From positions 62,001-126,000 of the forward strand of contig NZ_QAJN01000007.1 in NCBI RefSeq assembly GCF_003852425.1: 64,000 nt of DNA. Reading direction: 5' to 3'. This DNA is from Paucibacter sp. KBW04 (GTDB taxonomy: Bacteria > Pseudomonadota > Gammaproteobacteria > Burkholderiales > Burkholderiaceae_C). The translations under genes and the position numbers were made by a program. Shown here in pieces: positions 34,141 to 35,368 of this stretch. Each line of letters opens with the position of its first letter. The first letter of the stretch is position 1. The notes beneath the pieces are model-generated. The model was not told the origin of the DNA. It was given only the letters and a program-made list of their open reading frames with translations, and did not search any database.

Positions 34141-34635
34141 ATGCCGTTCATCCGCCTTGTCAACGCCGAGGACTCCATCGAGGACCTAACTCAACTGCTC
34201 CACCGGGCTTATGCGCGCCTTGGCGCGATGGGCTTGAACTACACGGCCGTCGATCAAACGCCCGCGGTGACGGCCCGCCGCATCGAGGGCGGCCACTGCC
34301 TTGTCGCCCTCTTGGACGGCAAGCTGGTGGGCAGCATCGTCGTGCAGCCCACCTATCAACAGAACGACTGTGCCTACTTCACCCGCCCAGGCGTGGCAGC
34401 GGCCCATCAGTTCGCGGTGGACCCAGAGCAGCAGGGTCAGGGCATCGGTCAGAGGCTACTGGCGGCAGCTGAAAGCTGGGCAAGAGCGTCGGGCTATCGC
34501 GAGTTGGCCATGGATACGGCCGAGCAAGCCAGCCACCTCATCGCGTTTTACAACAAGCTGGGCTACCGCCAGGTGGATTGGGTGCAGTGGCCCGGCAAGG
34601 TCTATCGCAGCGTGGTGCTAAGCAAAATCCTGTGA
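34141..34635 (+). CDS. GNAT family N-acetyltransferase
   Basis: About 164 residues. The acetyl-CoA-binding motif A is VDPEQQGQGIGQRLLAAAESWA, and motif B is AEQASHLIAFYNKLGYRQVDW. Such enzymes transfer an acetyl group from acetyl-CoA to an amine; the substrate is not apparent. The ATG is 11 bases after the response-regulator stop, so it may be the third gene of that operon. The structured element at 34642-34849 begins 6 bases after its stop codon. Confidence 0.85.
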   Translation: MPFIRLVNAEDSIEDLTQLLHRAYARLGAMGLNYTAVDQTPAVTARRIEGGHCLVALLDGKLVGSIVVQPTYQQNDCAYFTRPGVAAAHQFAVDPEQQGQGIGQRLLAAAESWARASGYRELAMDTAEQASHLIAFYNKLGYRQVDWVQWPGKVYRSVVLSKIL

Positions 34636-34641
34636 GCCTCG

Positions 34642-34849
34642 GAGGGTGAGAATTTTTGTAGCGAGCGGTCGTCAGGCTAGGCCGAACTCGGACACGAGGA
34701 GTCCTGAGGACTTCTTGTGCCTAGCGAGGGCCAAGGCCTCTGGCCTTGGCGGACGGAGCACAGGAACCGGAACGTACTTCAGGTACGTGAGGATTCCGAG
34801 CACCGCCCAACGACGCATGGCGGCCGCGCAGTAAAAAATTCTTACCCTC
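34642..34849 (+). ncRNA. Highly structured RNA-like or MITE-like element (possible ORF-less HEARO/omega-RNA)
   Basis: A 208-base non-coding block bounded by a 16-base inverted repeat with one mismatch: GAGGGTGAGAATTTTT (34642-34657) and its partner (34834-34849). Inside are three strong stems. The first, centred on AGTCCTGAGGACT (34700-34712), extends to 13 bp and then to an outer CTAGG/CCTAG pair. The second is GCCAAGGCC-TCT-GGCCTTGGC (34730-34750). The third is ACGTAC-TTCAG-GTACGT (34772-34788). The mismatches in the first stem and in the terminal repeat become G-U pairs only on the plus strand, pointing to a plus-strand RNA. It has no ORF. HEARO RNAs insert after ATGA/GTGA, and a GTGA lies at 34646-34649. 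The family assignment is tentative. Confidence 0.55.
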
Positions 34850-35368
34850 TCAGTCCTTGAACGCGCGCCCCAGGTGCAGCACCCAGTAGCGTTCGTACTG
34901 GCCAGGGCCGACCACGCAGGCCATGCCCACGTCGACAAAGCTGGGCTCCATCAAATTGTCGCAATGGGCGGCGCTGCTGACCCAGGCCAGCATCACCTCG
35001 TCCAGGGTTTCCTGCCCCCCGGCCAGGTTCTCGCCGGCGCGCATCAGGGGGTAGCCCTGCAGGCGGAAGCGCTTGCGCAAGGTCAGGCCCAGGGCGCTGA
35101 TATGGCTGAGCTCATTGCGCTGTGACAACTCGCCCGCAAAAGCCTGGGCCGAGGCCGCCAGGCGCGGGTCCCAACGCAAGGCCTGGGCCGGCGGCATATT
35201 CACCGCGCCGCATTGGCGGGGCTGGGTGCGCAAGGCATTGATCTGAGCCAGCACCTCTTGGGGATTGAGGCCTTTTTGGCAGGCGCTGGAATCGCTGAGC
35301 GTCGGGCCGCCGCCAGCAAAACAAAGGCTGGTGAAGGTGAGCAGAACAGCTGAAACGAGAGCGCGCAT
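34850..35368 (-). CDS. Secreted CAP-domain (SCP/PR-1-like) protein
   Basis: 172 residues. A signal peptide (1-18, ending LCFAG) precedes a CAP domain: LRWDPRLAASAQAFAGELSQRNELSH, then AGENLAGGQETLDEVMLAWVSSAAHCDNLMEPSFVDVGMA, with the conserved His and Glu positions (LSH, GENL, HC). Bacterial CAP proteins are secreted and of varied or unknown function. The stop codon lies at the very edge of the structured element, so transcription of this gene runs into its terminal repeat, which may act as the terminator. Confidence 0.85.
   Translation of the reverse strand: MRALVSAVLLTFTSLCFAGGGPTLSDSSACQKGLNPQEVLAQINALRTQPRQCGAVNMPPAQALRWDPRLAASAQAFAGELSQRNELSHISALGLTLRKRFRLQGYPLMRAGENLAGGQETLDEVMLAWVSSAAHCDNLMEPSFVDVGMACVVGPGQYERYWVLHLGRAFKD

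Follow-up and report, generated by a model that had tools for sequence, protein, structure and literature searches.

Enterobacterial MITEs of the ERIC and RU type are short, lack an ORF, and have inverted-repeat ends and a target duplication; in a normal MITE, the ends are kept while the middle drifts. HEARO RNAs, the omega-RNAs of IscB, insert after ATGA or GTGA without a duplication, and IscB- and TnpB-type elements are not known to make target duplications. REP elements are described as 20 to 40 bp long, extragenic, located mostly downstream of coding regions and carrying a GTAG motif (PMC3733652), and some REP dimers are described as jumping into the apex of a palindrome or terminator (PMC3733652, section 7).

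Here, we analyze a structured repeat from Paucibacter sp. KBW04 that resembles each of these systems in part. Like ERIC and RU-type elements, it is short and ORF-less and has inverted-repeat ends and a target duplication; it differs from them in that its interior, and not its ends, is conserved between lineages, and in a strong bias in position and orientation relative to stop codons. With HEARO RNAs (RF02033), which are often ORF-less, it shares being structured and mobile, whereas its insertion footprint differs. With REP elements and BIMEs it shares an extragenic location, mostly downstream of coding regions, and a GTAG motif; however, it is several times longer and has a TNA duplication. 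Finally, it belongs to the same sequence family as sX9 (RF02228), a Xanthomonas sRNA whose Rfam model, 76 positions long, spans roughly one half of the element. In a literature search conducted largely outside the subscription journals, we found no description of the whole family as one.

Results

In the window, i.e., the whole stretch of 64,000 nucleotides that was analyzed, the element is a 208-bp unit at 34642–34849 that consists of a core of about 110 nt, two arms of ~15 nt each, and an insert. The features at the locus are as follows:

34141–34635, plus strand: GNAT acetyltransferase gene (PF00583, 70.9 bits), convergent, stopping 6 bases left of the left arm
34639–34641, plus strand: left flank TCG, matching in position the TCA to the left of many genus copies and the empty-site comparison
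34642–34656, plus strand: left outer arm (terminal inverted repeat), resembling the GAGGGTGAGAACTTT arms of genus copies
34657–34834, plus strand (the folded strand): structured core, interrupted by the nested domain
34683–34750, plus strand: nested 68-nt domain with two hairpins (34693–34719 and 34730–34750)
34729–34788, minus strand: match to Rfam sX9, 33.3 bits, under the gathering score of 44
34763–34797, plus strand: apical hairpin of the core, with a conserved internal loop
34835–34849, plus strand: right outer arm (terminal inverted repeat)
34850–34852, minus strand: right flank TCA, which is the CAP-gene stop codon TGA and the presumed right copy of the target duplication
34850–35368, minus strand: CAP-domain gene (PF00188, 57.6 bits), with the element directly adjoining its stop codon

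An earlier note on this DNA, made from the letters alone, had recorded a 16-base terminal repeat and three internal stems, and all of them are present. The terminal inverted repeat (34642–34657/34834–34849) spans 16 nt with a single mismatch, G-T on the plus strand; the 13-nt arms of the first stem (34693–34705/34707–34719) are 85% complementary; the second stem (34730–34738/34742–34750) has 9 perfect base pairs and a 3-nt loop; and the third, of 6 bp at 34772–34788, lies inside the longer apical arms at 34763–34777/34783–34797. The note had further described the element as ORF-less, which is right in substance, a mechanical 88-aa frame on the minus strand (34672–34938) running across it, and as filling the whole space between the two genes, which is correct from the right arm to the CAP stop codon (TCA, 34850–34852) and leaves 6 bases unfilled between the GNAT stop codon (34633–34635) and the left arm. 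It had also treated the element as one fold; in this respect it needs amending, as 34683–34750 is an extra domain, present in one other examined copy only. Folded as RNA, the plus strand of the 208-bp element reaches −115.1 kcal/mol (z = −8.3; 0 of 200 dinucleotide shuffles as good) and the minus strand −99.6 kcal/mol (z = −5.5; 0 shuffles as good). Between 34500 and 35000, we found no sigma-70-like promoter and no intrinsic-terminator-like site, i.e., a GC stem followed by a T run.

By sequence comparison, the window element is one copy of a dispersed, apparently MITE-like family with relatives in other Proteobacteria, including Escherichia coli. DNA searches recovered the family in 37 of 99 genomes, the own genome included, in which five strong further copies match approximately positions 6–56 and 116–229 of the query and leave the middle unmatched. 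The covariance model R1, which was built from alignment A1 so that matches to A1 copies follow by construction, identified the window copy at 34701–34849 (95.2 bits, E = 1.8e-21) among 10 matches at E ≤ 1e-4 in its own genome; across the class, under strict filters and with at most 11 candidates scored per genome, it identified the family in 69 of 274 genomes and 62 of 222 genera, again counting the own genome. A pattern scan of named genomes added 61 stretches, mostly in Polaromonas, Rhodoferax, and other Comamonadaceae, and also in Rhodocyclaceae, Gallionella, Propionivibrio, and Roseateles. Five plasmid and three phage records match, none of them over 80% of the query. At the CAP locus itself, 3 of the 15 orthologues in the genus (own included) have the element, namely those of the window genome, G008, and G011; the outer stem in G008 and G011 differs from that of the window copy, and the other 12 orthologues are without the element.

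The fold is supported by covariation. In A1, whose 96 copies are drawn from the genus, the family, and the order, 28 of the 40 pairs changed on both sides at least once. Counted in cells, which represent sequences of related copies and not events, 94.7% of A1 is paired, compared to 82.8% after shuffling (sd 0.3), and both sides are changed in 374 cells, compared to 82.7; with the alignment slid by 1 to 3 columns, 28 to 43% of cells are paired. Compensatory changes, therefore, go beyond chance, as in a structured RNA. The mismatches are polar. In A1 and in the model-fitted alignment A2, both of which lean to the plus-strand fold, the inner stems have on the plus strand 255 G-U to 13 A-C and 154 G-U to 23 A-C mismatches, respectively, and the outer stems 54 to 21 and 61 to 12. 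A2 has 84 rows, almost all from other taxa, and consists of copies other than those in A1, yet it contains the window copy, L207, and L223. For copies at the groES locus, the ratio of G-U to A-C is 12:0 in 4 rows and 29:0 in 10 rows, one of which is another copy in the same record. In a strand-neutral check, for which helices were picked by Watson–Crick pairs alone, the second stem has 82 G-U to 4 A-C; the polarity of every helix taken together is weaker (199 to 76) because this count includes the variable outer arms (82:51) and one doubtful column pair (0:15). The 87 rows of this check are 89 copies minus L123, L132, and L145 (N runs, cut, and large insert) plus the window copy without its insert; A1, with 96 of 106 rows, also omits L017, both L019 cores, L207, L223, L226, and the duplicate L100. 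Because the mismatches are mostly G-U on the plus strand, a selected fold on that strand, which is the one antisense to the abutted gene's mRNA, is strongly supported, and the plus-strand-only polarity that the earlier note had read from the window copy is borne out.

Conservation is distributed differently in the arms and the core. In 143 of 178 elements, at least 12 of 15 arm positions are paired, as compared to 0.2% when dissimilar arms are swapped, and the 147 elements with at least 11 paired arm positions represent 33 arm families. Nevertheless, in element pairs with less than 30% arm identity (1,118 of the 3,000 sampled), the cores are on average 76% and up to 95% identical. Judged from these comparisons, the family conserves its interior while its arms differ wholly between lineages and yet pair, apparently the reverse of a normal MITE. 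This inverted conservation, in which the core is kept and the arms need only pair, would be explained if an enzyme or partner protein reads the folded strand.

A few loci depart from the usual architecture or from the expected taxon. L308 (G160:C90:7752–7832) is a mini-element of 81 bp that lacks the apical domain and has arms and core ends of the family type; at L222 (G005:C34:316211–316316), family-type arms are merely ~106 bp apart, and we found no core between them. L306, on a contig labelled Terracidiphilus (JADGNO010000110.1), has arms like those of the Comamonadaceae copies at the fad-type gene, and the contig is therefore probably misbinned.

Other copies and empty sites in relatives, the two things by which the earlier note had proposed to recognize a mobile element, were both found. 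Eight loci of the sister genome G009 were traced in three other genomes: seven of the eight sites were located in G000, none of the seven with a core, and six further site matches in G005 and G014 also had no core; a recheck of both strands confirmed these results. The L090/L202 junction is exact: aligned to the empty site, the two flanks of the filled site share exactly TCA, and the empty site contains no arms and no core. At L076/L200 and L079/L204, TCA is present at the joint, and the left flank beside it has diverged over ~7 and ~100 bases, respectively; divergence has made four of the seven G000 sites unreadable. Among the 147 paired-arm elements, TNA flanks both ends at equal arm length in 53, compared to 24.7 when the right flanks are swapped. 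The two TNAs share their middle base in 41 of these 53, compared to 30.2 with shuffled partners, and five of the 12 differing cases (L144, L148, L152, L154, and L155) are stems that continue through TCA/TGA and not duplications. Examples of matching flanks are CTGA/CTGA (L082, L236, and L302), CTAA/CTAA (L281 and L305), and CTTA/CTTA (L096). A 3-bp duplication on insertion (TNA, mostly within CTNAG) is demonstrated by the one exact junction and has statistical support from these counts. We take this footprint to be reminiscent of one branch of the IS5 family. The flanks of the window copy are imperfect (TCG/TCA), and the TCG is probably a copy of the TCA target duplication that would since have decayed. 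At the old loci, groES and the fad-type gene, we found no clear duplication. L230 (G180:C1:443371–443512) lies between two convergent frames that both apparently end at CTAG, and CTAG flanks it on both sides.

In an arm search of G009, nearly all arm matches pair ~130 bp apart, and no transposase with the same ends was found. Similarly, a search for an autonomous partner via shared arms, with up to 2 mismatches in 3 + 3 genomes, returned nothing certain. At the start of contig G160:C73 (L323), an arm-like 19-mer lies beside a frame for a Mutator-type transposase (PF00872, 26.9 bits); this might be an autonomous partner, or chance.

The copies have a preferred position and orientation. As determined by a simple open-frame/GC3 rule and not by annotation, the right-hand gene is on the minus strand and runs to the element in 74 of 89 copies (opposite in 12, undecided in 3). 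In 72 of those 74, no more than 21 nt separate the stop codon from the core, the commonest distance being exactly 15 nt (39 copies), i.e., the arm length; the rule requires an open frame from ~85 nt beyond the core, with stops farther off uncountable, and several of the loci are orthologous and hence not independent. At 79 further loci, the right-hand gene is on the minus strand in 51 (stop 2 to 27 nt from the core), opposite in 9, and undecidable in 19. By comparison, the left-hand end faces a 3' end in just 24 of the 89 and 18 of the 79, and in one copy from the genus, L121, it is instead the left arm that has a stop codon, on the plus strand. In G009, 17 of 22 whole copies are at a stop codon in a single orientation, while in the window 6 of 21 non-coding CTNAG sites are stop codons.

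At groES and the fad-type gene, the stop and last codons belong to the outer stem and are still paired where the codons differ; at mreB, ybaB, and the livK-like gene, the core follows closely after the stop codon and the outer stem is mostly short. In a survey of 60 genomes, groES was found in 57, and the element was present at 4 of the 30 groES loci examined; we therefore rejected a general groES–groEL position for the element. A pre-existing hairpin at the groES stop codon was not borne out, with 8 of 26 core-less loci having a stem score of at least 6 compared to a mean of 5.3 and a maximum of 9 in 200 controls in which the downstream sequence was swapped. The stop-codon rule could stem from selection or from the insertion mechanism. 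The argument for selection is that insertion there would harm nothing and that the orientation would keep the most stable fold off the mRNA.

The sX9 model lies on the strand opposite to R1, and thus opposite to that with covariation and G-U polarity. Against its gathering score of 44, another copy in the own genome scores 44.5, L230 51.6, and L306 51.2 bits, and 2 of 16 loci scored reached the cut-off; the window copy, at 33.3 bits, stays below the threshold, and its nested domain interrupts the match. These observations suggest that RF02228 captures roughly one half of the unit, and on the strand for which there is no covariation. In E. coli MG1655, R1 scores 51.6 bits at ycbX/rlmL and 46.5 bits at pheS/pheM, two stretches selected on the basis of matches in other E. 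coli strains. With the E. coli copy as query, 5,375 of 5,426 E. coli genomes match at a median of 5 places, whereas the Burkholderiales query touches 4,110 of the 5,426 and has 0 places with 80% coverage. The pheS/pheM copy has 17 paired outer-arm positions, and the ycbX/rlmL copy has CTAAG on both sides and imperfect arms. The apical domain alone is closely alike, whereas the second stem and the arms differ from those of the Burkholderiales copies, and at neither locus is a stop codon abutted. The E. coli link, as read from these alignments, appears to be carried by the apical half of the core. The repeats at the two loci may be the RSA (BEE95) sequences. E. coli BoxC was dropped as a candidate relative, as it is described as an intrastrand-triplex motif (PMC4666352).

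Discussion

We propose, with a probability of roughly 0.77, that the repeat is a non-autonomous, MITE-like transposable element with a single-strand-constrained core and a preference for stop codons. Points that weigh against it are that our searches turned up no transposase sharing the ends, that a MITE would not usually have arms without common sequence between lineages, and that the duplication is unclear at the old loci and imperfect in the window copy. The safe part of this proposal is that the repeat is a DNA element that is non-autonomous, has paired ends, and comes with a TNA duplication: it is short, has inverted-repeat ends and no transposase gene, and is associated with a target-site duplication and empty sites. 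An enzyme supplied in trans would move the element. Given a conserved core and arms that may differ in sequence provided that they pair, we suggest that the folded plus strand, either as RNA or as single-stranded DNA, would be part of the recognition by this enzyme or by a host protein. Copies at stop codons would persist there as the gene stays whole and the less stable strand enters its mRNA. A bolder version, which we regard as unlikely, is transposition addressed by structure, in which the enzyme reads the folded strand (the plus-strand RNA or its DNA), the ends are set by pairing and not by sequence, and insertion occurs at CTNAG with a strong stop-codon bias. If it were true, the Burkholderiales copies would form a single class-wide, SINE-like family together with sX9 and the repeat of E. 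coli, possibly mobilized via RNA. What matters more generally is that an Rfam sRNA family, repeats of E. coli K-12, and a multicopy Burkholderiales repeat are joined in one element with a testable stop-codon rule.

Among the other explanations, the one to which we give most weight, while considering it clearly the less probable, is that the repeat is a structured RNA or 3'-end element maintained by the host, e.g., an antisense RNA, a terminator, an mRNA stabilizer, or a ribosome-stalling element, whose spread is ancient and which is retained today for its effect on the abutted gene. In favor of this explanation, several genes (groES, mreB, ybaB, the livK-like gene, and the fad-type gene) are followed by a copy in more than one genus, and the last codons of groES and of the fad-type gene lie in an outer stem that pairs despite codon differences; a host function at old loci is possible. 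However, a general essential role is made less likely by the patchy presence (4 of 30 groES loci examined and 3 of the 15 CAP orthologues of the genus); moreover, the strand with the conserved fold is antisense to the gene's mRNA, at groES as elsewhere (12:0 and 29:0 G-U to A-C), and 34500–35000 has neither a sigma-70-like promoter nor an intrinsic-terminator-like site. That 33 arm families (147 paired-arm elements) surround one core family, and that locus-specific palindromes surround L143, L144, and L145, could alternatively mean that the core alone is mobile and inserts at the apex of palindromes or terminators that were already in place. We find this quite improbable: the L090/L202 empty site is without core and arms, so both arrived together, the two other readable sites agree, and the number of core-less groES loci with a stem (8 of 26) stays within the control range (5.3 expected, maximum 9 in 200).

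Two described transposition systems are further candidates. Movement as a REP or BIME by a RAYT (Y1) transposase could account for the GTAG at both ends of many cores, and the own genome has three PF01797 matches, two of them over the cut-off. By contrast, none of these three loci has a core, no RAYT gene flanked by the repeat was found in the own genome, and a 140-bp unit with arms and a 3-bp duplication is unlike REPs of 20 to 40 bp; we therefore consider this system very unlikely to be involved. An ORF-less HEARO or omega-RNA of an IscB or TnpB element, as favored in part by the earlier note, would also be structured, mobile-looking, and without an ORF, and yet we assign it almost no probability. 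The whole window contains no RF02033 match at the gathering score, and 34400–35100 contains none even at E values up to 10; a target duplication, moreover, is present: the flanks look like TNA duplications and not like a one-sided ATGA or GTGA. The GTGA at 34646, to which the earlier note had pointed, sits within the terminal repeat and does not mark an insertion site. The other half of that suggestion, a MITE-like mobile RNA, has largely held, given the dispersed copies, element-free sites, 3-bp duplication, and strong plus-strand covariation, and it is the MITE-like element that we retain.

L019 (G000:C27, ~187.9–188.2 kb) contains two oppositely oriented cores from a variant subfamily, ~100 nt apart, and resembles a BIME-type pair.

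The window copy is also distinguished by its insert. Copies such as L009 to L011 read GGCTAGGC-GGACGG at the point where the window copy has 68 extra bases (34683–34750), and by this comparison the window copy is the basic element plus a nested domain. The copy at the CAP-gene stop codon would have gained this second structured domain later, or would have been born with one. Among the 89 + 17 + 79 copies examined, the domain is present in just one other, L207, at the same internal position; L207 is in the sister genome G009 and adjoins a gene that reads like one for a HIT-family protein, with a tatA-like gene on the opposite side. The inserts in L145 and L223 are unlike the nested domain of the window copy. 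Within the own genome, the domain is 84 to 86% identical over 51 to 64 bases to L015 (C27:112303) and L016 (C2:295768), and more weakly similar to L018 (C8:53996). These three are related to the nested domain but occur by themselves, each in palindromic surroundings of its own, and appear to constitute another small repeat family.
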